NCBI GenBank assembly: GCA_947172415.1
Contig: OX359190.1
Location: 744,001 to 808,000, forward strand
Length of the DNA stretch: 64,000 nt
From: Chondrosia reniformis
Lineage: Eukaryota; Porifera; Demospongiae; Chondrillida; Chondrillidae
Direction: 5' to 3'
Shown in pieces: positions 27,747 through 64,000 of the stretch. Below the pieces are notes generated by a model. The model was not told the DNA's origin. It saw only the letters and a program-made list of their open reading frames with translations, and did not search any database. Each line of letters opens with the position of its first letter. Position 1 is the first letter of the stretch. A program made the position numbers and the translations under genes.

Positions 27747-30700
27747 ATGTCCAACGATAAAGTGAGTTTATCTACATCCTTCCCAGAACTAAACAAAAAG
27801 CAATGGAGATATATTCTTGATGAAGCCGCAAAAATTTCCATCGATTGCTCCCAGACCATTTATCTCATTCAGTTTCTCGTAAAAGTGGGTGTTACTATAT
27901 AGACTCGCAGTCGCTAACCTTTCACCGGTCAAAATGAGTTCAGTTTAATTTAGCAAACTACATGTTCTGCCAGTGTATGGAACTCGTTACCAGAAATAGT
28001 CCAATTCAGCGAAATATCTTGTAAGCTCAATTTTTGAAATGCGCCCAACTAGCTAGGTTGAAAGAGTGGTTATCCTAAGCTGATATTATCCGAGAGTTTT
28101 TAGAACAGTCACACCTTTAGCTTTCAAAGACCCTTGCCCAAAGTCTCTTTGTTTAGAATACTGCGACACAGTTGGGTTATGCAAAACCTCGCTCAAACTA
28201 GCTAGCGAAATGCAACCTTGAAATTCGTAGGCACTTTAGAAAGCAAAGTACACCGCTCATCCTTACTAAGTGGCAGAATGTTTAACTGGTGCATGTTGAG
28301 GAGGTTAAGATTTAATAGACTATTAGACAGTAAACGGTGAAATGACTCTTTGCATTCTGTTAAGTTGGACTTTGTACAAACAGACTGCATGATTTACAGA
28401 CTGTAACTCAAAGGTTTCTTGTAATAAACTGCTACTGAAAACTTACATATCCGTGTGTGCTAATTTATAGAGAGTTACCAAGCAGACGTGCACGCTTCAA
28501 TCAGTAAATGTTTCTTATCTCAATTAGATCTTTCTCAGTGACCTCCTCAGAGCTGGAGGTCATTTTCTGAAATCCACCGATATCCCCAAAATGTTGAGAG
28601 GAACATCCTTTGCTAAAGCACTTGCACATCTTCAAAGTGTTTTCGTCTATGGAACATCTGAACAGGTTCAGATTTACGATGTTAGAAACACTAAATGGTC
28701 AACACTACCTCGACCTCCTCATTCTGAGAGTGGAGCAGCCATCATAGGAAACCAGTTTACTTTAATAGGAGGTAGAGACACTCGTCATATTCCTACAAAC
28801 GATCTAGTGACATGGACAGGCAAAGAATGGAAAGTACTATATCCTCCAATGCACACCGCCCGATCCAGTCCAGGTGTTCTTGCATTTGAAGACTTAGTAA
28901 TTGTCTCTGGAGGAAGAGGAGCAGATGGCAAAGCAGTAGACACAATTGAAGTCCTGGATATTAACAAAAGAATATGGATACAGTCGAATCTGAAACTTCC
29001 TCTACCATTAACAGGACACCACATGGCATTGTGTGGTGAATACATTTGCATCTACTACTACAGGGATGGATATTTTTGGAGAATGAATAAGAATTTTATG
29101 GCTTCACTTACAACAAATGATGAACATCACTGGGAACAGCTCGAGAATGCACCATTGAACAGTTCGCTATTACAATACAGCACCCTACCAGTCGTAGTGG
29201 GTCCAAAAGGAATCTTCATTTTCGAGAAGAAGAATTGGACACGAATTAGTGAAGAAACGTCTTATCACCTCAATTGTACGGCTTCCCTCAACGAAACTAC
29301 ATTTCTCACATTTGGAGGAGACTATCAGAGAAGAGCTGTACAGTACGACATTGCAGTTAAGGTTAGTAAACTTATTTAGTATTAAAAGTCTTGTTAACAT
29401 TCGTTGTGTGAAATTTTCTTGTTCTTTGCATTTGAAGTGAAAAAGTAGAGGAAAGCGTTTAAAGCATTTATTTTCCGCTGTAGTTAAACTGTTTATTATC
29501 GCGTGCTACGTATGTAAGTATGTTTATTTCTCGTCCTGTGAACATTCGTGTGGTTAGTTATAAGATGTTGATAGTACAGAAATGTTGGTTGTAGACACGT
29601 TTAATAAACTGCTTCCTAACAGAAACGAGAGTTCATTGCTAGGCACGGAAGCGTCCCAAGGCGAAGTCGGCCATTTTATTTTAGTAGTAGATAGTAGCAT
29701 AGCATCTATTTGAGTGGCATTCCGCTATAATTATAAGATTCTATAGTTGCATAATAATGGATGTATATAACTTCTCAGACATATTAAAGTGACTTTAATG
29801 TGCTCAAAAACTGTCCTTTAGGTACGTATGTAGGTTCCATGTCTTGCAAGTCATTTGGATTAAAGTCTTCCTATTTCTGTGACAATGGCCTACCTCTGAA
29901 CGATAGTAAAACTGGCGTCTTTGAATACAGTGAATAACAGATAAGGTCGAACTGATAAAGAAAACACAAAACCATTTAGGACACTCCATAGAGGACGTTA
30001 AAGTAGTGTCTAGTTGATCACATGTGAACTGTAGCAGGCGTTTGAGGAATAATAAACTGATAACCCTCGAATTAGGTTAATGAAAATTTGAAAAACTGCT
30101 TATTCATATAATGACTTATTGGTGAGAATAGTCAATACTTCAAATATGTCAAGTGTGTATTACATTATAAACACATGCATATTATGTTTAATTACACTCA
30201 ATCTCAATTGTCCATGATAGTTACATATCTCTTCTTGGTATATCCCATGCAGGAACCAAAGTGGTATGAAGAAGCCATAGAAGGACATGGTTCAGTTGAA
30301 GTGAACATTAGCCATGCAATCTTCACAGGAGGCTCGCGTGTTGGTAAAACCTCACTGAAGCACTACCTGCTCCACAACACAGTAAGAGAAGACAAAACTA
30401 GCACTGGAGTGCTGGAAGCTCCTGAAGTGGCCACCATTGCTGGGGAGCAAACTATTAGGGCAGGATTTGAGGAGGAAGGCCAGGGGAAGGAAGAGGAGTA
30501 TGATTTCATTAAAGGTTTAGCAGTTGGTTCTTCCTGGAAAGTTTTAACAGATGAAAAGCTAGGGCAGCTTATTTCAAAGATTAAAATGGAGGAAAGGGAG
30601 GTCTTTCCAGGCAGCACTCTAGAAACCCCACCTGCCTCTCCTCCACAGGCTTCATCTGATGATACCACTTTAGCTGGTGATATTGCCAAGACAACTGAGA

Positions 30701-33233
30701 TAGCCAGTGAGACGACCAAGCTACCAACCGACACCTCCATAACCCCTCCTCCTCCTAGCCATGATACCACTGAGGCTTTAGCAGTACAAGACCCACTGGA
30801 GCTGTTAGTACAAGCCAGGGACAGCTTCCTGCAGAAGCACAATCTCTCCACTGAAGCAGAATTTGATGAAAAGGAGTGCACGTTCATTTACCTCCTGGAC
30901 ACAGGAGGCCAGCCCTCCTTTCAGAATGTCATTCCACTCCTACTGGACTTTCCCTGCAACTTTTTGCACGTCTTTAAAGCTTCAGAGAGGTTGACCGATC
31001 CGTATATCAATGCTTACTGTCAAGATGGAGTCACTGAAGTGGAGAGCGCCAACAGCCGTTCAACCTGGGAATTGATGAAGGAGTCCATAACAGCTGCCTA
31101 CACAATGTCAATGAAGAGCAAGCGGCAGTTGGAAGCATTCGATGTTGCCACTGAGCCTCAACTTTGCATTTTCCTTGTTGGCACTCACCTTTCCCATCTT
31201 CCCAAGGATCCTGAAGCTGAGAGAGCTCTACTGGACCACAACGAGAAGGTTCTAAAGGAAATGGACAACAAGCCCTATGACAGCAACAGGGTATTCCCCC
31301 CAAAAGAGGTTGCCTACAAAGGTGCTGGTAGCTACTTTCTAGTGGACAGTCAGCTACAAGGAGACAGCAAACTGAAGGAGCACACTCGTAAAGCTGTAAA
31401 TGTTCTTCGTTCTCTACTTTCAGATGCCAAGAATCGATTAACACTGAAAGTCCCCAAAGTTTGGTTCTGCCTTCAACTAATCACATCTAGCGTGAAAAAG
31501 AAGATGTGGAAGTTCACAGAACTGAAAGAGTTCTGCATCCGATGCAACTACATCCAAGCTGTAGATGCTGACAGACAGCTCCTTGCACTGCTGAACCTGT
31601 TTCACAGTCTTGGGTTCTATGTGTACTTTGACCTGAGTGAGTACAAAGAGCAGTGGATCTGTACAGATGCAACCTTTCTGTACAAGGAAATGTCCAAAGT
31701 GCTATCGGTCCAGTATGGCCCAAGTGAATCGCCTAGTCCAGAATTACGTATCTTTAAGGAAACTGGAGAAATTCCTGAAGCAACTTTTGAAAATTTGTTC
31801 CAACAGCTAGGCATTGATGCTGACATTCCAACAAGATGGCTCCTGGAGGTCCTGGTAAAAATTGGTATTGCAGCCAAAGTGAGAGCGAAGGAGACACGCT
31901 ACTACTTAATTCCAGCAGCCCTTCCTGAGAGGCAGATCCACCTACCTGAAGCATCTGTGGCCACTTTGGGATTCGCTTTCTCCTTTCATTCCAAGTTCCA
32001 ACATCACAGATACAGCTGCATACCAACTGGTCTGTTCCACAGACTGGCCGTGGACATTGTAACCAACCGACAGGCTCTTGAGGATCAGCAGATCATGCAA
32101 GCATACATCAGTGGAAGCCAGTGGGAGTACTGTCCCAGTCAATCTGACAGTACTCAATTCATTTTCTCCCAAGAGAATGCCCACATTGTCCTTTCCCAGA
32201 AGGGGGACCTCATTCTGCTCCAACTGCTGGTTCCTCAGTACGTTTCTCAGTTTGGTCTCTCTTTGACAGAGCTCTGCAGGTGTATCAGAATGGAAATGAA
32301 AGAGCGAATTGCTTTTGTAAGTAAAGCCGTTTTCGGAAGCGAGTTTTTATCCAGAAAGGCTACTTTAGAGGATGGTGTCATTTGCCGTTACTGTGAGGGC
32401 TCCACTTTGCATCTTTTGCGATTTAAAGATGGCAACCAGAGAACGGGTCTGTGTACCAGACTGAACAAGGTGAAGTCATTATCTCCAAGAGAGTCTGTTT
32501 GGGTTGCTAAGGAACAGGACAGCAACACCAATGTAAGTTTGCATAATATTACGTATTCACAATTATTGACTGTATATTTTACATTCTAATCTTGCTGCTA
32601 CTAACTCTATTTAATATGTTATTATTGTTATTCTTTGGACACAAGTAATTTATTGATTTTTATATCTTCTTCTGTATAGTTGAGTGTGGCTGGTAAAGTG
32701 GAATTTGACGGAGACCAGTTCCTTCTCTATAAAGACCAGTCTACCTGTACTGGAGGACCTGAAGTTGTTAGACAGCCAACACCATCTGCCAACTCAGGAG
32801 AGTGTGATGGTGAGTACATATTCACTGTACCACTAAAATGTGAACCCGATTATGTCAGTTAACTGCCTCATGATGATGTAATGATTGTTGTAAATTCATT
32901 TGTTGTGTAGATGTTTCGGACAATTGGAAAGAAATAATACAATCCAAACACTGGGTCTACCTGTTGGGCAACCTCACTGTCAACAAGATAGTGGATCACC
33001 TCTACCAGGGAGTGGATGGAAAGTCACTGGTTACTGAAGAGGTGTATGATGAGATTGAGAATGCAAAGAGCAAAAAGGAAGCAAACAAGATCTTCTTAAA
33101 GCACTTGCTGAATGCTGGTACAGAGGAGAGTTTGAAGCTCCTTTGTACAGTTCTTCAACAAACATCTGGTGACTATCAAATTCATGAAGAGATTCTTGAG
33201 AAACTGAACGATGATTTCAAATTTGGAATGTAA
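27747..33233 (+). CDS. Kelch-ROC-COR-CARD receptor-like GTPase, copy A
   Basis: Exons: 27747-27761 (MSNDK; a longer option ends at 27884), 28528-29361, 30253-32532, 32680-32809, 32911-33233, about 1193 residues. All junctions are in phase. The second exon is a Kelch propeller (about residues 6-283; AAIIGNQFTLIGG, PPMHTARSSPG, DTIEVLD). The third has P-loop GGSRVGKTS (near 309), DTGGQPSF (near 499), VGTHLS at the G4 place (near 593) and a COR domain (about 683-840, ending YYLIPAALPE). The last exon is CARD-like (VTEEVYDEIENAKSKKEANK, then LLCTVLQQTSGD). No signal peptide or membrane segment: a cytosolic sensor-switch-adaptor is inferred. The CARD exon differs from those of B and C, and a relic of their type lies downstream. 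One Gly of the first Kelch GG is missing. Confidence 0.88.
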
Positions 33234-34620
33234 CTTTCAAGTTGATCTGTATCTTGTAAATTTTAACTTATTTTGTCATTTAGTTTAATTTCTATTTGTT
33301 GATTTTTAATGTCCTTTGTAAGTTTACAAGTTCGTATAAGCAGAGTATATACACACTAATTACCCTTTATCAGTTTAAGGCCTTTGCATGATGTAACACT
33401 TGTGTTATCGCTTATCTATAGTGGCTAAAATACATTTGTAAATATGGTGTCAAGGGTGTCAAGAAACAGCTAAAAGAGATGTCTCAACGTAGTTTAGAAC
33501 ATAAAATGGATAAGTGCGACCACTGGTCCGTTGTCAATCATTGATTAGAGGAAGCTGGGTGCGAAGATCAAACCAGTTGACCCAAAAATATTCACAGATA
33601 TTGCTACTGATGTGAACCAGATTCATTATGTCAGTTAACTGAGTCATGATGTAAGGAGATTGGGAAGGCAAAGAATGTAAAGGAGGCAAACACGATCTTC
33701 CTTCTCCACCTGTTGACCACTGGTACAGTGGAGAGCTTGTATCTGTTTGGTAAAGTACTCCAACAGACATCAGATGACTATCTGATTCATGAAGAATTTC
33801 TGGAGAGACTGAAAGAGGATTTCACCATCTTACGTATTTTTCCATTTATAGACTTTTGTAACTTAACAACTCTTTAGTATTTCATATTTTGGACATTACA
33901 TGTACCTACGTACGTACGTGTATTATTTGTAAATTTAAAACTGTCAAAGTGGAACAATCAGTTAATTTTAATTCATACTTATAAAAACATTTAAAATGAA
34001 GTTAGAAGTAGGAATGGCCAGTGTTGTAACAATGTACATGTCAAAACACGTATAACTGTATATACTAGCTGGATTAATAATCCTTGTAGATTTAGGTTGT
34101 AAGGTATACTGTTTGGTAGGTTTTGTATATACTGTGTCAATTATTCTTACATAATAAGGTGTAATCATATTTCAATTAAAGGTATTATGTGTTAGTACAA
34201 CAAACTGTGTCTAGAGAGGATTCACTGACATGAACTGCGCAAGCATGAGTTTGTATATATTGTGTTCAACTTGAAAAGCAGGAATTATAAATGTTATAAT
34301 GGATGGCTTGTATTGTTAGTGTTCTAATAGAAGCACGCCCTATTCACAGTCAAACTGGCACTGCTCTGTGCACTATGGAAGACATGGACTGGCAGAGAAG
34401 AGGCCATTCTGGTCTCATAATAGCAGGTGTTCTAAAAGGAATGGAAACAAGGTCAAGTTAAAAGAATATTTGAATCCACATAATGTCTTAATATACGAGT
34501 TAACATATACACACAACTGAAATACATTAATATATTACTAGATATAAAGGTTCTATTGCTGATGAAGACCTATACAGATTGAAATGTTCTATTCAATGCT
34601 ATTGCTCAATAATCTTTATT
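33234..34620. other. 3' flank of copy A
   Basis: Apart from the relic CARD exon at 33655-33830, this is AT-rich sequence that matches the 3' flanks of copies B and C (for example ACCTACGTACGTACGTGTAT near 33905). From about 34190 on it matches the flank of C up to the collagen locus. No further gene was seen. Confidence 0.6.
33655..33830 (+). pseudogene. Relic of a B/C-type CARD exon
   Basis: Matches the last two thirds of the terminal exons of B and C: IGKAKNVKEANTIFLLHLLT, then LFGKVLQQTSDDY and LKEDFTI. The first CARD helices and the normal acceptor are absent, and the stop codon (CACCATTTAA in B) has become CACCATCTTA. The flank that follows is the normal 3' flank of B and C, so this is probably the original last exon of copy A. 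Confidence 0.75.
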
Positions 34621-34625
34621 TCTCA
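34547..34625. mobile_element. Half copy of hairpin element
   Basis: AGATATAAAGGTTCTATTGC and TGATGAAGACCTATACAGAT-TGAAATGTTCTATTCAATGC resemble one arm of the element at 23312-23467. An almost identical copy lies at 56935-57012, carried by the duplication. Confidence 0.6.
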
Positions 34626-37600
34626 TCATGATCGGAACAAATAATCTCCCTATAGTTGATACATACAGCTAATATACGAGGTTTAACTAGATGTAAGGTT
34701 GCCTGGTTACAGACCTCAATAGAACCACGATCTCCACCTGTTCCAGGTAGACTCTGTGATCCTGTGATACCAGGACCACCTGCTAGTCCTCTGGAACCCT
34801 AAACATATACATACATGTAGTGATGAAAGTATACTTTGATTAGATTAATCAAACCCAAAAATTGCACACTTCAATTTACTATCTAATTTTTTGATTGTAA
34901 AGTTTTATAACACATACATAGTCAGCTTGTTCTGATATATATGTATATACGTAGGTGAATCACTAGAACTTGTTTTGTTTATTCCCTCTAAAATGATGTC
35001 TGAGAATGATTATTTGTACTCTAATCAACACTACAATTATTCATATAAATGCTGTACTTACTGCTGCACCTTGTAAACCCTCCGATCCAGTGACAACCTT
35101 TGCTCCCTTATTACCTTCAGTACCAGCACTTCCACTTGTACCATCACCTCCACAACGTACTTCCAACATCACCTCTCATACCCTGCCAGTGAATTGCATA
35201 CAATATTAGACATTTTACTATGTAATTAATTAAAATGAGTGATGGAAAAACATACTTTTAGTCAACAGGATGCTACCTATATGTAAGATCTTAACAAAGA
35301 GTTTAACTGACCTTTTCTCCTTGATCACCTTGTGCCCCAGTAGAACCTCTATCTCCCTTGACACCTTTGATACCTTGTGCACCAGTTGCACCAGTAAGAC
35401 CACTCACACCCTACAGAGAATGAAATGTAGTCAACCAACATGTAGTATGCTTCAATCAGACCACTCATGAGGAGAATGACCATCAGGTTTTTGAATGCAT
35501 AATATCAATTAACTCACTGCTGCTCCAGCTATTCCAGAGAGACCATTAGGACCAGAATCCCCTTGTTTACCAGGGCTACCATGCTCACCATTGCTGCCTG
35601 GGTCTCCAACAGCACCTGGATTACCAGGTTCTCCATCAAAACCTCTGTCTCCCCTTCCTCCCTAAATTGTAGTACGTAACTTCTAAACAACCTAGATGTA
35701 TGCAATGCTAGCTGGTTTCACTTACAATAGCACCTGGAGCACCACGGAGTCCATTCTCACCACGATCTCCCTGTGAACCACCAACTCCTGGTTTACCAAC
35801 TGCACCATTAAATCCAGTCAATCCTGGAATACCCTGAAATGATCATAATTTTGAACAATTATAGCACTTTTGGTTCTGACATGTAAATCCACTTACTCTG
35901 GCACCTTGAGACCCTATGGGTCCCTTTTCTCCTTTCTGACCAGGTTTACCTTGGTCTCCATTACGTCCAGGTCTGCCATCCACACCATTTTCACCAAATG
36001 CACCAGGATTACCAGGTGAACCATCACGGCCAGGAGAACCCTGCTTTCCTTCTGCACCAACATTGCCAGGAGGACCAGGTGGACCTGGGGGGACCATCTG
36101 CACCTTGTCGACCCGGGAGACCAGGCTCACCATTGGCACCAGGGGGCCTCACATTGCCCTATTATTATAACAACAGTTAAAATAATATAGAAAGTATGTG
36201 TATATGAAAAACACTAATCACTCACAGATGCTCCTTTGACACCTGAGGCACCAGCCACACCTTTTTCACCCTAAAAATTGACAGATGTTATTAATTATTT
36301 TCAAAGTTCCTTACTTCTTATGCATGCACATTTAAGCTTGTAAAGCAAGGATTTTTGTAACTCACTTGGGGTCCTTGACTTCCACTAGATCCACGCATAC
36401 CTACACTTCCTGGTGGACCTGGTGCTCCAGGGTTACCTTGCCTTCCTGGATCACCTCTCTCACCCTTAGGGCCTACCGCTCCTTGGACACCAGGAATACC
36501 ATCTTTACCTGGAGGTCCCTGGGTACCTAGTTCACCTCTTCGTCCTGGGTTACCATTGGTTCCATCAGGACCACGTGCACCCGGGTAACCTTCCAAACCA
36601 GTTTCTCCAGGGAGATATATATTAATCTTTCCATCACATCTAACCTAGTTTCTCACAGCAGCTCCAGCTGGACCACTGGGACCTGTATTGCCAACTGGAC
36701 CAGGTTCACCAGGCTTGCCTGATTCTCTGTCTTTTCCTTTAGATCCAGGATCACCCTGACAGAGGAAGCTTACACTTTTAAAGAGTGATTCAAACTGAGG
36801 GTAAATTTACTTAAAATTGGACCCCTCTTTGCTCTTGCAAGCCATTTGCTCCAGGAGGACCAGGGGGACCCCTAGAACCATCCTCGCCTGGGTTACCCTT
36901 ACTACCAGGAATACCCTATTGATGTGCAGGCATATATGACTATGATCTGGAACAGAGGAGGAGGTTGATTATAGCACTAACATCGGTTCCAGAGGGCCCT
37001 TCTACACCAGCAGGACCTGTAAGTCCGACTGCTCCGAATCCACCAGGCTCTTCGATAATTCCTTTAGGACCCTCAACCCCATGGGCTCCCTCAGGCCCAG
37101 GTGGACCAGGTAGTCCTGGAGGTCCTGGAGGTCCTTTAGGCCCCTAGATCGATCACAATTAATTTATTAATAGACAATTTCTATATTTGAAACATCTCAC
37201 GTACCTCTAATCCAGGAAGTCCGCCAACCTAAATTTAGAAAACACGATTAATAATGTAATAATGAAAGGAAATAATTTTACCACATACTATATGAGAATA
37301 GAAGATGTATGTAGGAAAATGGTGAGATTCATGCACTACATCTTGAAAACACTGAAACGTATAATACACATTTCCCAGTATACTGCAGACCTTACCTGAC
37401 ATGGTATACATATTCCCGGTGGTCCAGGGGGACCAGGATCTCCCACTTGAGCAGCCATGTAACTCAGAAAGGACAACAGTGGCAATCTTCATGCTACTAT
37501 AGAAAGACGAATAATGTTGATCAAGATTGTTCATACCGCATGCTGTGTCCTAGCGCCTGACGGTGGTACAGTGGACTTTGCTTGATATACAGTGCAAGTT

Positions 37601-39646: not shown

Positions 39647-42600
39647 ATCTTTCTCAGTGACCTCCTCAGAGCTGGAGGAGGTCATTTTCTGAAATCCACC
39701 AATATCCCGGAAATGTTGAGTGGAACATCCTCTGCAAAAGCACTTGCACATCATCAAAGTATCTTCGTCTATGGAGGAACATCTAGACAGGTTCAAGTTT
39801 ACAATGTTAATAACACTAAATGGTCAACGCTACCTCGACCTCCTCATTCTGAGAGTGGAGCAGCCATCATAGGAAACCAGTTTACTTTAATAGGAGGTCA
39901 AGACACTCGTCGCATTCCTACAAACGATCTAGTGACGTGGACAGACAAAGAATGGAAAGTACTATATCCTCCAATGCACACCGCCCGATCTGATCCAGGT
40001 GTTCTTGCATTTGAAGACTTAATAATTGTCTCTGGAGGAGAAGGAGCAAATGGCCAAGTAGACACAATTGAATTCCTGGATATTAACAAAAGAATATGGA
40101 CACAGTCAAATCTGAAACTTCCTCTACCATTATCAGATCACCACATGTCATTGTGTGGTGAATACATTTACATCTACGACGGGATGGATGGATATTTTTG
40201 GAGAATGAATAAGAAGAATTTTATGGCTTCACTTACAACAAATGATGAACATCACTGGGAACTGCTCGAGTATGCACCAAAGTGGAGTTCACTATTACAA
40301 TACAGCACACTACCAGTCCTAGTAGGTCCAAAAGGAATCTTCATTTTCGAGAAGAAGTGGACACGAATTAGTGAAGAAACGTCTTATCACTTCACTTGTA
40401 CGGCTTCCCTCAACGGAACTACGTTTCTCACATTTGGAGGAATAGTAGCAGGAGAACATCAGACAAGAGCTGTACACTACGATATTGCAGTTAAGGTTAG
40501 TAAACTTATTTAAGTATTACAAGTCTTGTTAACATTCGTTGCGCGCTTCGCGTGCACTTTCTCCTTCAAATAGAAACATTAGAAGGTTTTATTTCCTTCG
40601 TTAGAGTCACCTAACTTGTGCGCTCAGTGTACACGAAGCGCGTGTCAATGTTAACAAGACTTGTATTGCTTTAATGTTCTCGTACGAGTGTGTTCTACGA
40701 ACGCTCTCACGAGTTTAAGTGTTAACTTGTTTCCACTAACGAAGACTGTTAAGTCTTCTTGTTCTTTGCATTTGAAGTGAGAAAGTAGAGGAAAGCGTTC
40801 TAAGTATTATCCGCTGTAGTTAAACTGTTTATTATCGCGTGCTACGTTAGTATGTTAATTTCTCGTCCTGTGAACGTTCGTGTGTGATTAGTTATAAGAT
40901 GTTGGTAGTACAGAAATGTTAGTTGTAGACACGTTTAATAAACTACTTTCTAAGAGAACGAGAGTTAACTGCTAGGCGCACGGAAGCGTCCCAAGGCGAA
41001 GTCGGCCATTTTGTTTTAGTATTCAACAAGTTGTAACCTAATTTTTGGTGCGCCGTTGTTTTTGTCTGTTATTAAAAAGAAGCGAGTTGCCACGTTTTTA
41101 AATACTTAAGTACTTCTTGTTCAAAGTAAGTGAAAGGTAAACAGAAGTCAAATGAATGTGTCAGTGAATGTTTAGAAGAGATGTCGGGTATTGACTGTAT
41201 TATACTTGGCTGAATTGACTGTTCTCTAAAGATGCTTCTTGCTAGTTTTCCTGAAGCTAAGCATCACCAATAATATTGACCTACTGACTGAATTGTCAAA
41301 AGAATGTTTGCTTATAAACACAGACTGTCCCTTTGTGGGTAAACTATTGAAAAGTAATTAATGTGAAGTTTGGCAATGGCAATAATAAATGGCACTCAGA
41401 ATAGTATTTATATCAATTATCTAATTAACTGGGAGAATGTACACATCCTGGCCATATGCAGAGTTTGTAATATCAGTTTGCAGATAAATAGACAAACGAT
41501 ACATTTTTTGGGATCCGTTCACACGTTAATGGTTGTGGTCCTGTGGCCATTTTTAATTAGCTTTATTGACCAGTTATACATTGATTTGGAGAAAGTATTA
41601 TCATACGAGAGTATGTCATATGTACATTTACATACGTACGTAGGTAGCTGTTTTGTTGTCTTTTTGTGATCTAACTGTGCTATAAGATAAAAGTTGGTAT
41701 ATGTAAATGTACAAATCGTGTGTGACATACATGGAAAATGTATGAAACCTGTAGTATAATAAGTTCCTTCTCTGTGCTCTACCTGCAGGAGGGTCCTAAA
41801 TGGTATAAACAGGCCATAGATGAACATGGTTCAGTTGAAGTGAACATTATCTGCTGTTTCCTCACAGGAGGCTCGCGTGTTGGTAAAACCTCACTGAAGC
41901 ACTACCTGCTCCACAACACAGCAAGAGAAGACAAAACTAGCACTGGAGTGCTGGAAGCTCCTGAAGTGGCCACCATTGCACAAGGCATTGCCATTGGGTC
42001 TTCTTGGGAAGTTTTGGATGATGACAAATTAGGTGAGCTTATTTCCCAAATTGATATGGAGAAGACAAAGAACTTTCCCAGCAACACTCCACACACCACA
42101 GAATACTCACCTCAACAAGCTACAGCAGCAGGTAACACAGGAGTATTAACTTTGTGGGACAAAGTTAAAAAGCTGTTTCAGAGAAAGTCAACAAGAATGC
42201 AGTCTGATGTCTCTCCCAATCCATCTCTGACTGCTGCCACACAAGCCCTTCCCAGTAACTCTAGTCCTTCCCCAGTACACCAGGACCCTTTACTGTTACT
42301 ACACCAGGCCAGGGAGAGCTTCTTACAGAAGCATGATATTCCCACTGGAGCCACTTCTGATGAGAAGGAATGTACGTTCATTTACCTCCTGGACACAGGA
42401 GGCCAGCCCTCCTTTCAGAATGTCCTTCCACTTCTACTGGACTTTCCCTGCAACTTCTTGCACGTCTTTAAAGCTTCAGAGAGGTTGACAGATCCGTACA
42501 TCAATGCTTACTGTCAAGATGGAGTCACTGAAGAGAAGAGAGCCAACAGCCGTTCAACCTGGGAATTGATGAAGGAGTCCATTACAGCTGCCTACACAAT

Positions 42601-44750
42601 GTCCATGAAGAGCAAGCGCCAGTTGGAAGCATTCAATGTTGCCACTGAGCCCCAATTGCGTATTTTCCTTGTTGGCACTCACCTTTCCCTTCTTCCTGAA
42701 GATCCCGAAGCTAAGAGAGCTCTACTGGACCACAACGAGAAGGTTTTAGAAGAAATGGACAACAAGCCATATGACAGCAACAGGGTATTCCCCCCAAAAG
42801 AGGTTGCCTACAAAGGTTCTGGTAGCTACTTTGTAGTGGACAGTCAGCTACAGGGAGACAGCAAACTGAAGGAGCACACTCGTAAAGCTGTAAATGTTCT
42901 TCGTTCTCTACTTTCAGATGCCAAGAATCGATTAACACTGAAAGTCCCCAAAGCTTGGTACTGCCTGCAAGTAATCACATCTAGCGTGAAAAAGAAGATG
43001 TGGAAGTTCACAGAGCTGAAAAAGTTCTGCATCCAATGCAAATTTATCCAAGGTGTAGATGCTGATGGACAGCTCCTTGCACTGCTGAACCTGTTTCATT
43101 GCCTTGGGTTCTATGTGTACTTTGACCTGAGTGAGTACAAGGAGCAGTGGATCTGTACAGATGCAACCTTTCTGTACAAGGAAATGTCCAAAGTGCTATC
43201 AGTCCAGTATGGCCCAAGTGAACCTTCACGTCCAGAGCTACGCAAATTCATTGAAAAAGGCACGATTTCTGAAGTTGTTTCTGAGGCCTTGTTCCAACAG
43301 CTAGGCATTGATGCTGATATCCCAACAAGATGGCTCCTGGAGGTCCTAGTAAATGTCGGTATTGCAGCCAAAGTTAGGGAGAAGGAGACACACTACTTCA
43401 TTCCAGCAGTCCTTCCTGAGAGGCAGATCCACCTACCTGAAGCATCTGTGGCCACTTTGGGATTCACTTTCTCTTTCCATTCAGGTGAATTTCAGAGGTA
43501 CAGCTGTGTACCGACTGGTCTATTCCACAGACTGGCTGTGGATATTGCAAGTGGCAGACAGGTTTTAAACGAGGAGGAAGTAAGACCATTGCAGTTGAGA
43601 CGAAACCAGTGGAGGTACTACCACATGCAGTCTGACAGTAGACAGTTCATTTTCACACAAGAAGATGCCCACATTGCTCTTTCCCAAAAGGAAGACCTGA
43701 TTCAACTCCAACTGTTGGTTCCTGAGGACTTTCCAAACACAGAGCCGTCCTTGTCTGAGCTCTGCAGGCACATCAGAAGGGAGATGTACGAGCGCATGTG
43801 TTACGTGAGTGAGGAAGTATTTGGTGCCGAGTTTCTTGAAGAGAAAGCCACTCTAGAGGACGGGGTCATTTGCAGTCACCAGAATTGTGAGGGCTCCAGT
43901 TTGCATCTTCTGCGATTTGAAGGTGGCAACCAGAGAAAGGGTCTGTGTACCAGACTGAACAAGGTGACTGGACTAACTCCAAGAGAGTTAGTTTGGGTTG
44001 CTAAGGAACAGGACACCAATGTAAGTTTGCATAATATTATGTATTCAACAAAATAGACCTTATACGAATGTAGCAATTATTGACTGTATATTTTACATTT
44101 TAATCTTGCTGCTACTGACGCTATATAATATGTTATTGTTATTCTTTGGACACAAGTAATTTATTGATTTTTATATCTTCTTCTGTATAGTTGAGCGTGG
44201 CTGGTAAAGTGGAATTTGATGGAGACCAGTTCCTTCTCTATAAAGACCAGTCTACCTGTACTGAAGGACCTGAAGTTGTTAGACAGCCAACACCATCTGC
44301 CAACTTGAGAGAGTGTAATGGTGAGTGCATATTCACTGTACCACTAAACGTAACATCAGTTATATTAACTTCTGAATGATGTTGTAATGATTGTTGTAAA
44401 TTCATTCGTAATGTTATTTCATGTGTTGTGTAGATGTTCCAGGCGATTGGAAAGAAACGATACAATCCAAACACTGGATCTACCTGTTGGGCAACCTCTC
44501 TGTCGACAAGATAGTGGATCACCTCTACCAGGGAGTGGATGGAAAGCCACTAATCACTTTTAAGGTATATCAGGAGATTGGGAAGGCAAAAAGCATAATG
44601 GAGGCAAACACGATCTTCCTTCTCCACCTGTTGACCACTGGTACAGTGGAGAGCTTGTATCTGTTTGGTAAAGTACTCCAGCAGACATCAGATGACTATC
44701 CCATTCATGAAGAGATTCTTGAGAAACTGAAAAAGGATTTCACCATTTAA
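39647..44750 (+). CDS. Kelch-ROC-COR-CARD receptor-like GTPase, copy B
   Basis: Exons 39647-40495, 41789-44020, 44191-44320, 44434-44750, all in phase; the Kelch exon has an in-frame ATG at 39713. The homologous first exon and promoter are deleted. Domains as in A: Kelch propeller, P-loop GGSRVGKTS, DTGGQPSF, VGTHLS, COR (PKAWYCLQ to FIPAVLPE), linker exon, CARD-like exon (ITFKVYQEIGKAKS, LFGKVLQQTSDDYPI). This is the most diverged copy: NIICCFLTGG before the P-loop, and its own insertion between G1 and G3 with TLWDKVKKLFQRKS instead of the EEEGQGKEEE stretch. No stop or frameshift is seen, so the protein part is under constraint or recently active. How it is now transcribed is unclear. Confidence 0.85.
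40521..40662. repeat. Hairpin element in intron 2 of copy B
   Basis: AAGTCTTGTTAACATT with GCGCGCTTCGCG on the left pairs imperfectly with CGAAGCGCGTGTCAA and TGTTAACAAGACTT on the right. The same sequence is in C and D but missing in A. Confidence 0.8.
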
Positions 44751-52000: not shown

Positions 52001-55000
52001 TACGTATGTTAATTTCTTGTCCTGTGAACATTCGTGTGATTAATTATAAGATGTTGGTAGTACAGAAATGTTAGTTGTAGACACAATTAATAAACTACTT
52101 TCTAACACAACGAGAGTTAACTGCTAAGCGTCCCAAGGCGAAGTCGGCCATTTTATTTTAGTATTGAATAATTCTAATTTTTGGGCGCCGTTGTTTTTGT
52201 CTGTCTGTTTTTGTCTGTTTGTTTATAAACACAGACTGTCCCTTTGTGGGTAAACTATTGAAAAGTAATTAATGTAAAATTAGGCAATGCCAATACTCAA
52301 TGTGTAGCATTCACATGTAACAATCTAATTAATCAAGACCCTATTCTACTCTTATTGATAAGAGTGTCATGGAAGATAAGATCTGTATTTATGAACCTGT
52401 AAATGTTTTAGTAAATAGTACATCTACAGCCAAGTTGTGTTACATAACAAAGCTGTCTTAAAAGAGCCTTCAGAAGTTGTATCTAAACAGAATGTAATTC
52501 ACACTTTGGATGGCTAATGTAATGTGGATTAAAATTTTCCTATTTCTGTGACAATGGCTTACCTCCAAACGATAGTAAAACTGGCGTCTTTGAATAGAGC
52601 GAATAACAATTCGAACTGATAAAGAAAACACCATTTAGGACACTCCATAGAGGACGTTAAAGTAGTTTCTAGTTGATCACATGTGAACTGTAGCAGGCAT
52701 TTGAGGAATAATAAGCTGATAACCCTCAAATTAGGATAATAAAAAATTGAAACTCCTTATTCATAGAATGACTTATTGGTCAGATTAGTCAATACTTCAA
52801 ATATGTTAAGTATGTATTACATTGTAAACACATGCAATTGTCCATGATAGCTACGTATCTCTTCTTGGTATACCCCATGCAGGAACCAAAGTGGTATGAA
52901 GAAGCCATAGAAGGACATGGTTCAGTTGAAGTGAACATTAGCCGTGCAATCTTCACAGGAGGCTCGCGTGTTGGTAAAACCTCACTGAAGCACTACCTGC
53001 TCCACAACACAACAAGAGAAGACAAAACTAGCACTGGAGTGCTGGAAGCTCCTGAAGTGGCCACCATTGCTGGGGAACAAGATATTAGGGCAGGATTTGA
53101 GGAGGAAGGCCAGGGGAAGGAAGAGGAGTATGATTTCATTAAATGTTTTGCAGTTGGTTCTTCCTGGAAAGTTTTAACAGATGAAAAGCTAGGGCAGCTT
53201 ATTTCAAAGATTAAAATGGAGGAAAGGGAGGTCTTTCCAGGCAGCACTCTAGAAACGCCACCTGCCCCTCTTCCACAGGCTACATCTGATGATACCACTT
53301 TAGCTGGTGATATTGCCAAGACAACCGAGGTAGCCAGTGAGACGACCAAGCTACCAACCGAAACCTCCATAACCCCTCCTCCTCCAAGCCATGATACCAC
53401 TGAGGCTTTAGCAGTACAAGACCCACTGGAGGTGTTAGTACAAGCCAGGGACAGCTTCCTGCTGAAGCACAATCTCTCCACTGAAGCAGAATTTGATGAA
53501 AAGGAGTGCACGTTCATTTACCTCCTGGACACAGGAGGCCAGCCCTCCTTTCAGAATGTCATTCCACTCCTACTGGACTTTCCCTGCAACTTCTTGCACG
53601 TTTTTAAAGCCTCAGAGAGGTTGACAGATCCGTATATCAATGCTTACTGTCAAGATGGAGTCACTGAAGAGAAGAGCGCCAACAGCCGTTCAACCTGGGA
53701 ATTGATGAAGGAGTCCATTACAGCTGCCTACACAATGTCCATGAAGAGCAAGCGGCAGTTGGAAGCATTCGATGTTGCCGCTGAGCCCAAATTGCGCATT
53801 TTCCTTGTTGGCACTCACCTTTCCCATCTTCCCAAGGATCCTGAAACTGAGAGAGCTCTACTGGACCACAACGAGAAGGTTCTAAAGGAAATGGACAACA
53901 AGCCCTATGACAGCAACAGGGTATTCCCCCCAAAAGAGGTTGCCTACAAAGGTGCTGGTAGCTACTTTGTAGTGGACAGTCAGCTACAGGGAGACAGCAA
54001 ACTGAAGGAGCACACTCGTAAAGCTGTAAATGTTCTTCGCTCTCTACTTTCAGATGCCAAGAATCGATTAACATTGAAAGTCCCCAAAGTTTGGTTCTGC
54101 CTGCAAGTAATCACATCTAGCGTGAAAAAGAAGATGTGGATGTTCACAGAGCTGAAAGAGTTCTGCATCCGATACCAATTTATCCAAGGTGTAGATGCTG
54201 ATGGACAGCTCCTTGCATTGCTGAACCTGTTTCATTGCCTTGGGTTCTATTTGTACTTTGACCTGAGTGAGTACAAAGAGCAGTGGATCTGTACAGATGC
54301 AACCTTTCTGTACAAGGAAATGTCCAAAGTGCTATCAGTCCAGTATGGCCCAAGTGAATCGGAATTACGTATCTTTAAGGAAACTGGAGAAATTCCTGAA
54401 GCCACTTTTGAAGATTTGTTTCAGCAGCTAGGCATTGATGCTGACATTCCAAAAAGATGGCTCCTGGAGGTCCTGATAAAAATTGGTATTGCAGCCAAAG
54501 TGAGAGAAAAGGAGTCACACTACTACTTAATTCCAGCAGCCCTTCCTGAAAGGCAGATCCATCTCCCTGAAGCATCTGTGGCCACTTTGGGATTCACTTT
54601 CTCCTTTCATTCCAAATTCCAACATCACAGATACAGCTGCATACCAACTGGTCTATTCCACAGACTGACCGTGGACATTGTAACCAACCGACAGGCTCTT
54701 GAGGATCAGCAGATCAAGCAAGCATACATCAGTGGAAGTCAGTGGAGGTACTGTCCCAGTCAATCTGACAGTACACAATTCTATTTCTCCCAAGAAAATG
54801 CCCACATCGTCCTTTCCCAGAAGGGGGACCTCATTCAGCTCCAACTGCTGGTTCCTCAATACGTTTCTCAGCTTGGTCTCTCTTTGACAGAGCTCTGCAG
54901 GTGTATCAGAATGGAAATGAAAGAGCGAATTGCTTTTGTAAATAAAGCCGTTTTCGGAAGCGAGATTCTGCCCCAAAAGGCTACTTTAGAAGTAGGTGTC

Positions 55001-55892
55001 ATCTGCCATCACCAGAATTGCAGGACCTCCAGCTTGCATCTTCTGCGATTTGAAGGTGACAACCAGAGAACAGGTCTGTGTACCAGACTGAACAAGGTGA
55101 AGTCATTATCTCCAAGAGAGTCTGTTTGGGTTGCTAAGGAACAGGGCAGTAACACCAATGTAAGTTTGCATAATATTATGTATTCAACAAAATAGTCCCT
55201 TATCACGAATGTAACAATTATTGACTGTATATTTTACATTCTAATCTTGATGCTACTGACTCTACTTAATATGTTATTATTATTATTCTTTGGACACAAG
55301 TAATTAATTAATTTTTATATCTTCTTCTGTATAGTTGAGTGTGGCTGGTAAAGTGGAATTTGATGGAGACCAGTTCCTTCTCTATAAAGACCAGTCTACC
55401 TGTACTGGAGGACCTGAAGTTGTTAGACAGCCAACACCATCTGCCAACTCAGGAGAGTGTGAGGGTGAGTGCATATTCACTGTACCACTAAACGTAACGT
55501 CAGTTATATTAACTGCCGAATGATGTTGTAATGATTGTTGTAAATTCATTCGTTAATTTATTTCATGTGTTCATGTGTTTCCAGGCAATTGGAAAGAAAC
55601 AATACAATCCAAACACTGGATCTACCTGTTGGGCAACCTTTCTGTCGACAAGATAGTGAATCACCTCTACCAGGGAGTGGATGGAAAGCCACTAATCACT
55701 CTACAAGTTTATCAGGAGATTAGGAAGGCAAAAAGCATAATGGAGGCAAACACGATCTTCCTTCTCCACCTGTTGACCACTGGTACAGTGGAGAGCTTGT
55801 ATCTGTTTGGTAAAGTACTCCAACAGACATCAGATGACTATCCCATTCATGAAGAGATTCTTGAGAAACTGAAAGAGGATTTCACCATTTAA
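49028..55892 (+). CDS. Kelch-ROC-COR-CARD receptor-like GTPase, copy C
   Basis: Exons 49028-49042 (MSNYQ), 49734-50582, 52883-55159, 55335-55464, 55585-55892, all in phase, about 1194 residues. Domain order as in copy A: Kelch propeller, P-loop GGSRVGKTS, Thr/Pro/Ser-rich insertion containing EEEGQGKEEE, DTGGQPSF, VGTHLS, COR, linker, CARD-like (ITLQVYQEIRKAKS, LFGKVLQQTSDDYPI). GTPase exon is closest to copy A; the Kelch exon shares SEKVQVYDVKNTKWSRL with D. Kelch loops differ from all others (PPHYHNGAAI, ARAFPSV, YHNNCTAS). The last exon uses an acceptor 9 bp further in than in B, dropping three residues. Intron 2 (2.3 kb) contains an internal tandem duplication. Confidence 0.88.
50608..50749. 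repeat. Hairpin element in intron 2 of copy C
   Basis: Same element as at 40521-40662 and 61981-62122. Confidence 0.8.
50935..52830. repeat. Tandem duplication inside intron 2 of copy C
   Basis: Two copies of a module of roughly 1 kb that opens with ACGTATGTTAATTTCT-GTCCTGT (50940 and 52005) and closes near TATTACATT-TAAACACAT. Copy A has one such module. Confidence 0.8.
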
Positions 55893-57170: not shown

Positions 57171-57171
57171 G

Positions 57172-59604
57172 ACCTTTTCTCCTTGATCACCTTGTGCCCC
57201 AGTAGAACCTACATCTCCCTTGACACCTTTGATACCCTGTGCACCAGTTGCACCAGTAAGACCACTCACACCCTACAGATAATGAAATGTAGTCAACCAA
57301 CATGTAGTATGCTTCAATCAGACCACTCACGAGGAGAATGACTATCAGGTTTTTGAATGCATAATATCAATTAACTCACTGCTGCTCCAGCTATTCCAGG
57401 GAGACCATTAGGGCCAGAATCCCAGGGCTACCATGCTCACCATTGCTGCCTGGGTCTCCAACAGCACCTGGATTACCAGGTTCTCCATCAAAACCTCTGT
57501 CTCCCCTTCCTCCCTAAATTGTAGTACGTAACTTTTAAACAACCTAGATGTATGCAATGCTAGCTGGTTTCACTTACAATAGCACCTGGAGCACCACGGA
57601 GTCCATTCTCACCACAATCTCCCTGTGAACCACCAACTCCTGGTTTACCAACTGCACCATTAAATCCAGTCAATCCTCGAATACCCTGAAGTGATCATAA
57701 ATTTGATTAATTATAGCACTTTTGGTTCTGACATGTAAATCCACTCACTCTGGCACCTTGAGACCCTATGGGTCCCTTTTCTCCTTTCTGACCAGGTTTA
57801 CCTTGGTCTCCAATACGTCCAGGTCTGCCATGGCCATCCACACCATTTTCACCAAATGCACCAGGATTACCAGATGAACCATCACGGCCAGGAGAACCCT
57901 GCTTTCCTTCTGCACCAACATTGCCAGGAGGACCAGGTGGACCCGGGGGACCATCTGTACCTTGTTGACCCGGGAGACCAGGCTCACCACTGGCACCAGG
58001 GGGGCCCACATCACCCTATTATTATAACAAGTACAAATTAAACCACACCTTTTTCACCCTAAAAATTGACACATGTTTTTAATTATTTTCAAAGTTCCTT
58101 ACTTCTTATGCATGAATAGTTAAGCTTGTAAAGCAAGGATTTTTGTAACTCACTCGGGGTCCTTCAACTCCACCAGATCCACCCACACCACTACTTCCTG
58201 CTGAACCTGGTGCTCCAGGGTTACCTTGCCTTCCTGGATCACCTCTCTCACCCTTAGGGCCTACCGCTCCTTGGACACCAGGAATACCATCTTTACCTGG
58301 AGGTCCCTGGGTACCTAGTTCACCTCTTCGCCCTGGGTTACCATTGGTTCCATCAGGACCACGTGCACCCGGGTAACCTTCCAAACCAGTTTCTCCAGGG
58401 AAACCCTAATTAATGGAATAATCATTCCATCACATCTAACCTAGTTTCTTACTATGTTGTATCCTTACAGGAGCTCCAGCTGGACCACTGGGACCTGTAT
58501 TGCTAACTGGACCAGGGTCACCAGGCTTGCCTGGTTCTCTGTCTTTTCCTTTTGATCCAGGATCACCCTGACAGAGGAAGTTTACACTTTTAAAGAGTGA
58601 TTCAAACTGAGGGTAAATTTACTTACAACTCGACCTTTCTCTCCTCTTTGCCCTTGCAAGCCATTTGCTCCAGGAGGACCAGGGGGACCCCTAGAGCCAT
58701 CTTCGCCTGGGTTACCCTTACTACCAGGAATACTCTATTGATGTGCAGGCACATATGACTATGATCTGGAACAGAGGAGGAGGTTGATTATAGCACTAAC
58801 ATCGGTTCCAGAGGGCCCTTCTACACCAGCAGGACCTGTAAGTCCAACTGCTCCGAATCCACCAGGATCTCCGTCACTTCCTTGAGAGCCCTCATTACCG
58901 CGGGATCCCTCAGGCCCAGGTGGACCAGGTAGTCCTGGAGGTCCTTTAGGCCCCTAAATCAATTGCAATTAATTTATTAATAGACAATTTCTATATTTGA
59001 AACACGTCACGTACCTCTAATCTAGGAAGTCCCAAAATCTAAATTTAGAAAACACGAATAATGTAATAATGAAAGGAAATAGATTTACCACATACTATAT
59101 GAGAATAGAAGATGTATGTAGGAAAATGGTGAGATTCATGCACTACATCTTAAAAACACTGAAACGTATAATACACATTTCCCAGTATACTGCAGACCTT
59201 ACCTGATATGGTATACATATTCCCGGCGGTCCAGGGGGACCAGGATCTCCCACTTGAGCAGACATGTAACCCAGAAAGGACTACAGCGGCAACCTTCATG
59301 CTACTATAGAAAGACGAATAATGTTGATCAAGATTGTTCATACCGCATGCTGTGTCCTAGCGCCTGACGGTCGTGTGGTGGACTTTGCTTGATATGCAGT
59401 GCAAGTTACAAATATACGTATAATATTATATCTTGGACTATTTTGTGCCTGAAGTGGTCAAACTGTCGCGTGCTAACATACCTTGAATCCTGCAACAGTA
59501 TATTTTCCTAGGCCAACAGTAGCTATGCTGATGTGCCTAGAGGATTCAAAAGTTGTCCAGTAAGATGAAGCTGGAAAATGGCTGGCACGTACCTCTAGAA
59601 CCAT
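57172..59604 (-). pseudogene. Collagen-like gene, locus 2 (probably decayed)
   Basis: Same exon series as locus 1, from the first exon at 59482-59604 (41 codons, MVLEVRASHF) through Gly-X-Y exons (about 59217-59265, 58906-58955, 58801-58905, 58627-58736, 58460-58570, 58154-58395, 57749-58016, 57580-57687, 57380-57515) to 57172-57273. Exons broken in locus 1 are intact here ([19 protein letters not shown] with its GTAAGT). But a 10-bp deletion near 57424 shifts the frame (GSPGILALMV then stop), and the last two exons of locus 1 are deleted at about 57060-57070. If the shifted exon were skipped, a shorter chain could still be made. Gly-X-Y chains of this kind are secreted matrix proteins. Confidence 0.65.
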
Positions 59605-59933: not shown

Positions 59934-60028
59934 GGAGAACAAATGAATAACATTAAGATACCAATGAATACAATTAAGGACTCATAATGTTATTCATTGG
60001 ACTAGTACTTCCTTATTAAGGTACTATG

Positions 60029-60396: not shown

Positions 60397-63300
60397 ATGT
60401 CCAACGATAAAGTGAGTTTATTTATTCATTCAGTTTCTCGTAGAAGTGGGCGTTACTATATAGACTCGCAGTCGCTAACCTTTCACCGGTCAAAATGAGT
60501 TCAGATTAATTTAGCGAACTACATGTTCTGCCAGTGTATGGAACTCGTTACCAGAAATAGTCCAATTCAGCGAAATATCTAGTCAGGTCTTGTAAGCTCA
60601 GTTTATGAAATGCGTCCAACTCGCTAGGTTGAAAGAGTGGTTATCCTAAGCTGATATTATCCGAGAGTTTTAGAACAGTCACACCTTTAGCTTTCAGAGA
60701 CCCTTGCCCAAAGTCTCTTTGTTTAGAATACTGCGACAGAGTTGGGTTATGCAAAACCTCGCTCAAACTAGCTAGCGAATTGCAACCTTGAGATTCGTAG
60801 GCTTCTAAGGAACACTTTAGAAAGCGAAGTACGTCGCTCATCCATATAGTGGCAGAATGTTTAACTGGTGCACGTTGAGGAGGTTCAGATTTAATAGACT
60901 ATTAGACAGTAAACGCTGAAATGACTCTTTACATTCTGTTAAGTTGGACTTTGTACAAACAGACTGCATGATTTACAGACTGTAACTCAAAGGTTTCTTG
61001 TAATAAACTGCTACTGAAAACTTACATATCCGTGTGTGCTAATTTATAGAGTTTCCAAGCAGACACGCTTCAATCAGTAAATGTTTCTTATCTCAATTAG
61101 ATCTTTCTCAGTGACCTCCTCACAGCTGGAGGTCATTTTCTGAAATCCCGGAATATCCCCAAAATGTTGAGTGGAACATCCGATGCTAAAGCACTTGCAC
61201 ATCTTCCAAGTGTCTTCGTCTATGGCGGAACATCTGAAAAGGTTCAAGTTTACGATGTTAAGAACACTAAATGGTCAAGACTACCTCGACCTCCTCATTC
61301 TGAGAGTGGAGCAGCCATCATAGGAAACCAGTTTACTTTAATAGGAGGTCAAGACACTCATCGCACTACAAACAAGCTAGTAACGTGGACAGGCAAAAAA
61401 TGGAAAGTACTATATCCTCCAATGCACACCGCCCGATCCAGACCAGGTGTTCTTGCAATTGGAGACTTAATAATTGTCTCTGGAGGAGATAGAGCAGATG
61501 GCGAAACAGTAGACACAATTGAAGTCCTGGATGTTAACAAAAGAATATGGATACAGTCGAATCTGAAACTTCCTCTACCATTATTATCAGATAACCACAT
61601 GTCATTGGCATTGTGTGGTGAATACATTTACATCTACTACTACAGTGGATATTTTTGGAGAATGAATAAGAAGAATTTTATGGCTTCACTTACAACAAAT
61701 GATAAACATCACTGGGAACACCTCGAGAAGGCACCATGGGGCAGTTCACTTTTACAATACAGCACCCTACCAGTCATAGTAGGTCCATATGGAATCTTCA
61801 TTTTCGAGAAGAAGAAGTGGACACGAGTTAGTGAAGAAACGTCTTATGACTACCCTTGTACGGCTTCCCTCAACGGAACTACATTTCTCACATTTGGAGG
61901 AAGTGAAGGATTTGGAGATCAAACAAGAGCTGTACAGTACGATATTGCAGTTAAGGTTAGTAAACTTATTTAAGTATTACAAGTCTTGTTAACATTCGTT
62001 GCGCGCTTCGCGTGCACTTTCTCCTTCAAATAGAAACATTAGAAGGTTTTATTTCCTTCGTTAGAGTCACCTAACTTGTGCGCTCAGTGTACACGAAGCG
62101 CGTGTCAATGTTAACAAGACTTGTATTGCTTTAATGTTCTCATAAGAGTGTGTTCTACGAACGCTCTCACGAGTTTAAGTGTTAACTTGTTTCCACTAAC
62201 GAAGACTGTTAAGTCTTCTTGTTCTTTGCATTTGAAGTGAGAAAGTAGAGGAAAGCGTTCTAAGTATTATCCGCTGTAGTTAAACTGTTTATTATCGCGT
62301 GCTACGTTAGTATGTTAATTTCTCGTCCTGTGAACGTACGTGTGATTAGTTATAAGATGTTGGTAGTACAGAAATGTTGGTTGTAGACACGTTTAATAAA
62401 CTACTTTCTAAGAGAACGAGAGTTAACTGCTAGGCACGGAAGCTTCCCAAGGCGAAGTCGGCCATTTTGTTTTAGTATTCAACAAGTTGTAACCTAATTT
62501 TTGGGGCGCCGTTGTTTTTGTCTGTTATTAAAAAGAAGCGAGTTGCCACGTTTTTAAATACTTAAGTACATCTTGTTTAAAGTAAGTGAAAGGTAAACAG
62601 AAGTCAAATGAATGTGTCAGTGAATGTTTAGAAGAGATGTCGGATATTGACTGTATTATACTTGGCTGAATTGACTGTTCTCTAAAGATGCTTCTTGCTA
62701 GTTTTCCTAAAGCTAAGCATAATATTGACCTACTGACTGGATTGTCAAAAGAGTGTTTGTTTATAAACACAGACTGTCCCTTTGTGGGTAAACTATTGAA
62801 AAGTAATTAATGTGAAGTTGGGCAATGACAATAATAAACGGCAGTACATATTCATATGTAGCAATTATCTAATTAACTGGGAGAATGTACACATTCTGGC
62901 CATATACACAGTCAGCTAATTGTAATATCAGTTTGCAGATATACGTATGTACTTGATTGGACAGTCAGCTAATTGTAATTGATCTACTGATTGTGGATTT
63001 AGCCAAAACCTAATCTATCTTTCCCTGCTCTGTTTGGTGGAGCAAAGTCATCTGATCTGTTCATATACATGCATATGAACCTGTAAATGTTTTAATAAAT
63101 AGTACAGCTACAGCCAAGTTGTGTTACATAACAAAGCTGTCTTGAAAGAGCCTTCAGAAGTTGTATCTAAATAGAATGTAATTCACACTTTGGATGGCTA
63201 TCTCCTCATTAGCTGATAAGGAAAACCACAAGCTTTACCCTTAAGAGTACTCATAGGCCATCTTTAAGTGGCAAGGGGGATGCTTTGGTTCAATTATTGG

Positions 63301-64000
63301 ACTTCAATTCCTCCCATTGTAGCTCATTGCATTCCTCAGGAGACATGAGCTGATAAGGGTAACTCTAAGTACATATAATAATGATTTTGAAGATGGAGGA
63401 AAGCTTTGAAGTTTATAATTTTGCAGACATGTCTGTCTGCTCAGATGACAATTATACACTCTATAGGTAGTGAGACATTAGCCCAAATACCTGATTGTAA
63501 ACTTCAAAAATACAGACCTATCCATGCAGAGTATTAAACTCCTGTCCATGTTTAGAATGTCTGCTAATTGGTTACCTACTTAATTGTTGTTTTATAACAC
63601 AAGTTTCCCATTTTACGTAATATAAAAATGTATTCTTTCTGACTGAATAGACAGATATGCATAAGTAATACTTGCCTGGAGCAGGTATATACGTACGTAT
63701 ATTTACTAACTGCCACAGGACTTACGTATACCCAAAAAGCTACGTAGCTATTCCTAATAGTATAAACCTTTCGTATAATTGACGTTCCGCTGTATATACG
63801 TAAGAGTCCAAACAGTAATCCACTTGTTTTAGCATACTTTTACTTTATATATTGCCATCCTAAATTATGTAAACAAATGAGGTCTTATTGTGAGTGCTGG
63901 TTTTGTATGTACATTGTACAGGTTCCTAAGTGGTATCAAGAAGCCATAGAAGATCATGGTTCAGTTGAAGTGAACATTAGCCGTGCAATCTTCACAGGAG
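60397..64000 (+). CDS. Kelch-ROC-COR-CARD receptor-like GTPase, copy D (cut by window end)
   Basis: Exons 60397-60411 (MSNDK), 61101-61955 and 63922 to beyond 64000. The Kelch exon is complete; its framework matches the other copies, but loops differ (ARSRPGV, LLSDNHMSLAL with three added residues, KAPWGSS, SYDYPCTAS). Two residues are missing after DTHR. The GTPase exon starts VPKWYQEAIEDHGSVEVNIS and leaves the window just before the P-loop. The array therefore continues to the right. COR and CARD are expected but not seen. Confidence 0.85.
61981..62122. repeat. Hairpin element in intron 2 of copy D
   Basis: Same inverted repeat as in copies B and C. Confidence 0.8.

Follow-up and report, generated by a model that had tools for sequence, protein, structure and literature searches.

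Four Kelch-ROC-COR genes in tandem

The window, the whole 64,000-nucleotide (nt) stretch analysed here, comprises bases 744001-808000 of contig C2 in the genome of the sponge Chondrosia reniformis, of which 117 Mb on 15 contigs were searched. It contains a tandem array of four plus-strand genes, A to D, spaced 10-11 kb, in which a Kelch propeller is joined to a ROC-COR switch of the Roco type and to a CARD. The array was read from DNA throughout, and exon boundaries were drawn from the splice-site pattern together with profile and motif matches. A sequence-only reading of the window had placed four such genes here with the same exon plan. All four genes were confirmed, their Kelch and ROC-COR exons were located, and gene D was completed outside the window.

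In genes A-C, a Kelch exon of 834-849 nt is followed by a ROC-COR exon of 2.2-2.3 kb, then by an exon of 130 nt and finally by a CARD-like exon with the stop codon. Gene A consists of the Kelch exon at 28528-29361 (donor AAG/GTTAGT), the ROC-COR exon at 30253-32532, the short linker exon at 32680-32809 (43 amino acids, placed by its splice sites) and the CARD exon at 32911-33233. The corresponding exons lie at 39647-40495, 41789-44020 (with acceptor), 44191-44320 and 44434-44750 in gene B, and at 49734-50582, 52883-55159, 55335-55464 and 55585-55892 in gene C. The linker exon had no Pfam match (the copy of gene C was scanned). Gene D is represented in the window by a Kelch exon of 855 nt (61101-61955) and 79 nt from the start of its ROC-COR exon (63922-64000, acceptor at 63922); beyond the window, the ROC-COR match extends over C2:807925-810264 and a CARD match lies at C2:810686-810988.

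The shared plan held for these modules but not for the 5' end. A candidate first exon with an ATG was found by pattern in gene A (27747-27761; MSNDK, then a GTGAGT donor, in phase 0 with the Kelch exon), gene C (49028-49042; MSNYQ) and gene D (60397-60411; MSNDK), while the same pattern search gave none in gene B. Kelch exons are phase 0-0 in A, C and D. Phase 0 at the end of the Kelch exon and at both ends of the ROC-COR exon means that swapping either module would leave the reading frame intact. In gene A, some 110 bases after the first-exon donor (27765-27899), noted by eye, are absent in C and keep a frame open.

Pfam matched Kelch_1 and Kelch_6 above cut-off in all four genes, and the nearest solved relatives of the Kelch part include KLHL-type Kelch proteins. 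The motifs GGSRVGKTS, DTGGQ and VGTHLS, named in the sequence-only reading, are all present in A-C. In these genes, COR-A (E = 7e-6 to 1.3e-3; 6.9e-6 in gene A, 1.3e-3 in gene B) and Roc (E = 3.5e-3 to 1.1e-2) remained below their cut-offs; gene C scored 18.3 bits for Roc against 27 and 25.6 bits for COR-A against 35.3. The ROC-COR exon of gene A is 93% identical to that of gene C. Across 19 members, Roc was found in 8 and COR-A in 10 at E ≤ 0.01. The Pfam CARD profile matched gene A alone in the window (20.1 bits against a cut-off of 23.9; E = 6.3e-4) and gave nothing for the last exons of genes B and C, although the CARD of B is 94% identical to that of C. Matches across the 19 members were weak, with E < 0.1 in 13 and a best value of 3.7e-4.

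Since Pfam gave ROC-COR and CARD only below cut-off, folds were predicted so that Pfam was not the sole judge. The predicted structures show a ROC fold followed by a COR fold that match solved Roco structures, and a six-helix death fold with a broken helix 1 that matches solved CARD structures. A search of PDB sequences with a profile of the CARD alignment retrieved no CARD (best E = 0.087). Hence, the Kelch part is established by its profile matches, the ROC-COR and CARD parts by their predicted folds, and the order of the three holds. The genes thus withstood the fold test that the sequence-only reading had set for its own refutation, although the profile matches stay below cut-off. A match to SCAPER_N (12 of 19 members, best E = 4.9e-5) was dropped, as it covered only residues 3-42 in three window members and the full domain folds as a CARD.

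Among 62 relatives searched by pattern, DTGGQ was present in 60 and the P-loop in 44. The G4 motif reads VGTHLS, without Asp, in A-C and in 29 of 30 exons from the genome (one unmatched); an Asp in this motif confers guanine specificity. None of the 149 matches listed for the Pfam Roc profile in the genome (150 of 280 candidates scored) fell inside the arrays, and such families thus stay unseen. A relative from Halichondria panicea was 24% identical. Some distant relatives of the ROC-COR exon in the public set combine the module with other domains: P0069 has ten ubiquitin-like repeats before COR-A, P0071 and P0077 read NACHT-LRR-COR-A, and P0090 of H. panicea reads ankyrin-Roc-COR-A-Ig-Death, with Roc and COR-A below cut-off in these four.

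A partial second CARD-like copy lies 3' of gene A (33519-33818, plus strand; DNA repeat of 62%, protein match with an internal stop). It is a partial C-type CARD behind the A-type CARD, and loci L024 and L026 likewise carry second CARD pieces, which may point to replaced CARD exons or to alternative last exons. Away from scored ROC-COR exons there are many CARD-like exons, for example at C2:604000-673500, and 57 of 115 CARD places were unpaired.

Family size and alternative outputs

The genome-wide count that the sequence-only reading had proposed was made with the ROC-COR exon of gene C. It gave at least 59 ROC-COR exons, a lower bound (59 of 204 candidates scored); all were strong matches, 58 on C2 and one on C13, and three had an internal stop. 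Co-linearity was tested against 135 Kelch and 115 CARD places. In 58 of 59 cases, the same strand carried a Kelch exon no more than 8 kb upstream; a CARD lay downstream within 4 kb in 58 of 59, and both were present in 57. With the 101 best Kelch exons, a Kelch exon was found within 4 kb upstream of 47 ROC-COR exons and downstream of none; within 8 kb the numbers were 57 upstream and 11 downstream, the latter probably belonging to the next units. A CARD followed within 700 nt in 57 of 59 cases and never preceded. A chance arrangement is very unlikely, because co-linearity extends genome-wide, and the genome contains at least 57 Kelch-ROC-COR-CARD units. A long-protein search with Kelch, which is blind to single-exon frames, gave none at E ≤ 0.001 among 1539 candidates.

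The same Kelch exon also precedes other outputs. The 3' partners of 101 Kelch exons were sought up to 15 kb or the next Kelch exon. ROC-COR and CARD followed 57 of them (one also with a Death match 13 kb away), a Death match followed 28, a CARD without a scored ROC-COR followed 12, and four had no partner. In the array at C2:1.87-2.19 Mb, a Death match came after all 22 listed Kelch exons. Many Death matches contained one internal stop; L102, the sole Death-type member scanned with Pfam, scored 22.7 bits for Death against a cut-off of 22.6. The Kelch sensor exon, which is phase 0-0 in A, C and D, thus appears to behave as a plug-in module, because nearby genes carry the same sensor before a Death exon.

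That every Kelch array carries ROC-COR was ruled out, as hidden Markov models found Kelch in seven of seven stretches, CARD in two and ROC-COR in none; instead, these stretches held a Death domain (L102) or kinases (L100, L104). Distant Kelch exons lay near protein kinases (L100 on C14, L104 on C11) or a CARD (L099); those of L100 and L104 were 36-38% identical to the Kelch exon of gene C. Between the modules of loci L101-L103, TSLKEGD-like repeats were observed that may form a coiled coil.

Selection on the propeller and proposed function

Selection was analysed in 64 of 137 scored Kelch exons, namely genes A-D plus the 60 best of the remaining stop-free exons. We calculated ratios of nonsynonymous to synonymous substitution (dN/dS) from Nei-Gojobori counts, comparing a mask of 60 loop residues with the other 223 residues. 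The most variable residues recurred at two positions in each blade, one immediately preceding the first strand and one immediately following the GG pair. In the Kelch exon of gene C, the variable residues are 27, 44, 68, 84, 115, 131, 164, 179, 210-211, 227, 247 and 265. In cluster 1 (38 exons), loop dN/dS was 3.22 (bootstrap 2.87-3.66), versus 0.64 in the rest and 0.49 in the opposite loops; in cluster 2 (26 exons), it was 1.78 (1.53-2.06), versus 0.65 and 0.66. When the mask was slid along the exon, the observed loop rate was reached in none of 282 shifts in either cluster. Disjoint nearest pairs gave 3.48 versus 0.68 in cluster 1 (19 pairs, Fisher p = 1.8e-18) and 2.55 versus 0.78 in cluster 2 (thirteen pairs, p = 2.2e-7).

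A mechanical mask built from GG positions alone yielded 4.33 versus 0.83 in the disjoint pairs of cluster 1 (p = 4.7e-13) and, more weakly, 2.29 versus 0.97 in cluster 2 (p = 0.0015); over all pairs the values were 3.85 versus 0.76 and 1.45 versus 0.80. Cluster 2 is mixed. Its 14 exons from other arrays had a dN/dS of 1.84 in D-A and 2.83 in B-C loops, versus 0.63, and its 11 Death-array exons had 2.32 and 1.48, versus 0.84. Gap-free columns agreed (2.79 in cluster 1, 1.69 in the other-array group, 1.87 in the Death-array group), and 61 distinct 13-site combinations occurred among the 64 exons. Hence, diversifying selection is confined to the D-A and B-C loops of the propeller. In Keap1 these loops share the ligand face, and by analogy they would form one face here.

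Conversely, the ROC-COR exons were under purifying selection (dN/dS of 0.38 in 26 exons and 0.39 in 4 exons), as were the CARDs (0.36-0.54 within types). Because dN/dS is high in the loops and low in ROC-COR and CARD, the sensor diversifies and the switch and output are conserved, which is an NLR-like pattern. The site of selection strongly supports Kelch as the sensor, as the sequence-only reading had supposed. Its term NLR-like suits the probable way of working and does not extend to membership: NACHT had no match at E ≤ 1 in Kelch and ROC-COR exons or at E ≤ 10 in last exons, and LRR had none in the exons scanned with Pfam.

We consider the genes probably to be intracellular, NLR-like recognition receptors, with Kelch as sensor, ROC-COR as nucleotide-controlled switch and CARD as output. 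Judging from selection, the variable propeller face would bind a partner that differs per gene copy, either a microbial product or a self marker. By analogy with known families, binding may alter the nucleotide or dimer state of ROC-COR, whose nucleotide, given THLS in place of THxD, may or may not be GTP, and CARDs brought together might recruit a CARD adaptor or caspase for death or alarm signalling.

Alternatively, the genes could serve allorecognition, in which the propeller face reads self or non-self markers of other individuals and the CARD triggers rejection. Tandem expansion with diversifying selection is a signature that such a system would share, and fungal NLR-like non-self recognition genes, in which WD40 propellers vary, are known from the literature. 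The diversity measured here lies between paralogues, however, and we regard this explanation as unlikely.

The receptor reading also depends on Kelch and ROC-COR-CARD being spliced together rather than being separate neighbour genes that were duplicated together. Several observations weigh towards two genes. Gaps between Kelch and ROC-COR reach 7.3 kb, gene models come from DNA alone, and an in-frame ATG stands 5' of the ROC-COR exon both in A-D and, with no stop in between, in 25 of the 28 loci that show its acceptor AG (of 30 fetched, two unmatched by pattern), so that a separate start is possible. However, A-C have an in-phase donor and acceptor, and the Kelch frame stops a few codons past the donor in A-D. 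In L035, L036 and L038 (3 of 28), an in-frame TAG directly abuts the ROC-COR exon, and a start just upstream is therefore excluded there. Together with the co-linearity of 57 of 59 units despite varying spacing, this makes separate genes quite unlikely.

Very unlikely, too, are adaptors like Keap1 and KLHL proteins, whose Kelch face would bind a wide and changing set of endogenous proteins, for instance to have them degraded, with the CARD as scaffold only. The KLHL-type proteins among the nearest solved relatives fit such a role, but no BTB or other E3 part was found in the Pfam scans of the exons, and a loop dN/dS above 3 does not suit constant endogenous partners. Decaying duplicates without function are hardly conceivable, despite the three interrupted ROC-COR exons and the stop in the partial CARD copy 3' of gene A, given that 56 of 59 ROC-COR exons are free of stops and the switch and output are under purifying selection.

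Besides the receptor reading of the Kelch-ROC-COR-CARD genes, we tentatively propose that about 100 genes share one plug-in Kelch exon with a single diversifying face, connected at the signalling end with either a Roco-CARD switch or a Death output, as an intracellular receptor system apart from the NLRs. If so, the Kelch propeller would be a further recognition scaffold in animals, diversified as entire repertoires and fitted with interchangeable signalling ends, and its binding face would vary in the manner of LRR or antibody surfaces. A Roco family of this size in an animal, equipped with a diversifying sensor and a CARD, would offer a direct route to testing Roco proteins as immune switches.

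Neighbouring features and comparison with known systems

Other features of the window include minus-strand collagen-like Gly-X-Y stretches between genes A and B (34616-37147; Pfam Collagen E = 2e-18) and a similar stretch 3' of gene C (57365-58441; DNA repeats of 93-99%, by eye). A ZIP zinc transporter exon lies 3' of gene B (45913-46461, minus strand; Pfam Zip E = 2e-13), and an M18 aminopeptidase exon lies at 24616-25020 (minus strand; Pfam E = 6.8e-40).

Roco proteins are most familiar from their link to Parkinson's disease. APAF-1 and CED-4 have an NB-ARC switch and an N-terminal CARD, and differ in both respects from the genes described here. Roco proteins switch nucleotide and dimer state (PMC6320773). 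In contrast to LRRK1/2, the C. tepidum Roco and DAPK1 (the last according to PMC6320773), the sponge genes have Kelch before ROC, a terminal CARD, a long insert between P-loop and DTGGQ, THLS at G4 and no kinase match in the exons scanned. For the kinase-bearing Roco group of Dictyostelium and metazoans, Kelch or WD40 flanks are named; a Kelch motif beside Roc-COR is shared, but the core of that group is LRR-Roc-COR-kinase (PMC6320773). The text of that paper has no word beginning with 'card' (term count 0). Trichoplax ROCO genes carry LRR, TPR, CARD and death domains (PMC11378527) and share ROC-COR with CARD in an early animal, while Kelch is unnamed in the main text of that paper (count 0).

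Brown-algal LRR-ROCO genes, proposed as diversifying immune receptors, share the ROCO switch, the expansion and diversifying selection on a repeat sensor (PMC11378527). However, they are LRR-ROC-COR only, with an LRR of shuffled 72-bp exons, whereas here it is the loops of one whole Kelch exon that vary, upstream of a CARD. Prokaryotic AP-GTPase-COR conflict systems with rapidly evolving LRRs are candidates for invader sensing; they share a fast sensor, a Roc-type GTPase, COR and a variable C-terminal domain, but have an LRR sensor and bacterial effectors (PMC8195603). Amphioxus DED-TRADD-N proteins, suggested to recognise invaders, likewise form an expanded group of animal proteins in which a death-fold domain occurs together with a highly variable propeller; they differ in that the propeller is WD40, its variation is ascribed to recombination and ROC-COR is unnamed in that text (PMC8195603).

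Animal NLRs, expanded in sponges, share the logic of sensor, nucleotide switch and death fold as well as the large expansion (PMC12909245). In that 2026 survey of NLRs in one sponge, a term search turned up COR a single time, in the legend to a figure, and no mention of Kelch. Sponges treated with microbial products showed down-regulation of two Kelch-motif genes (PMC6208332). Titles and abstracts revealed no recognisable Kelch-ROC-COR-CARD family, and the statement of the sequence-only reading that no family with exactly this order has been described stands to that extent. Kelch-bearing Roco and CARD-bearing ROCO proteins are already in print; what is new here is that the Kelch loops diversify and that the outputs are exchangeable.
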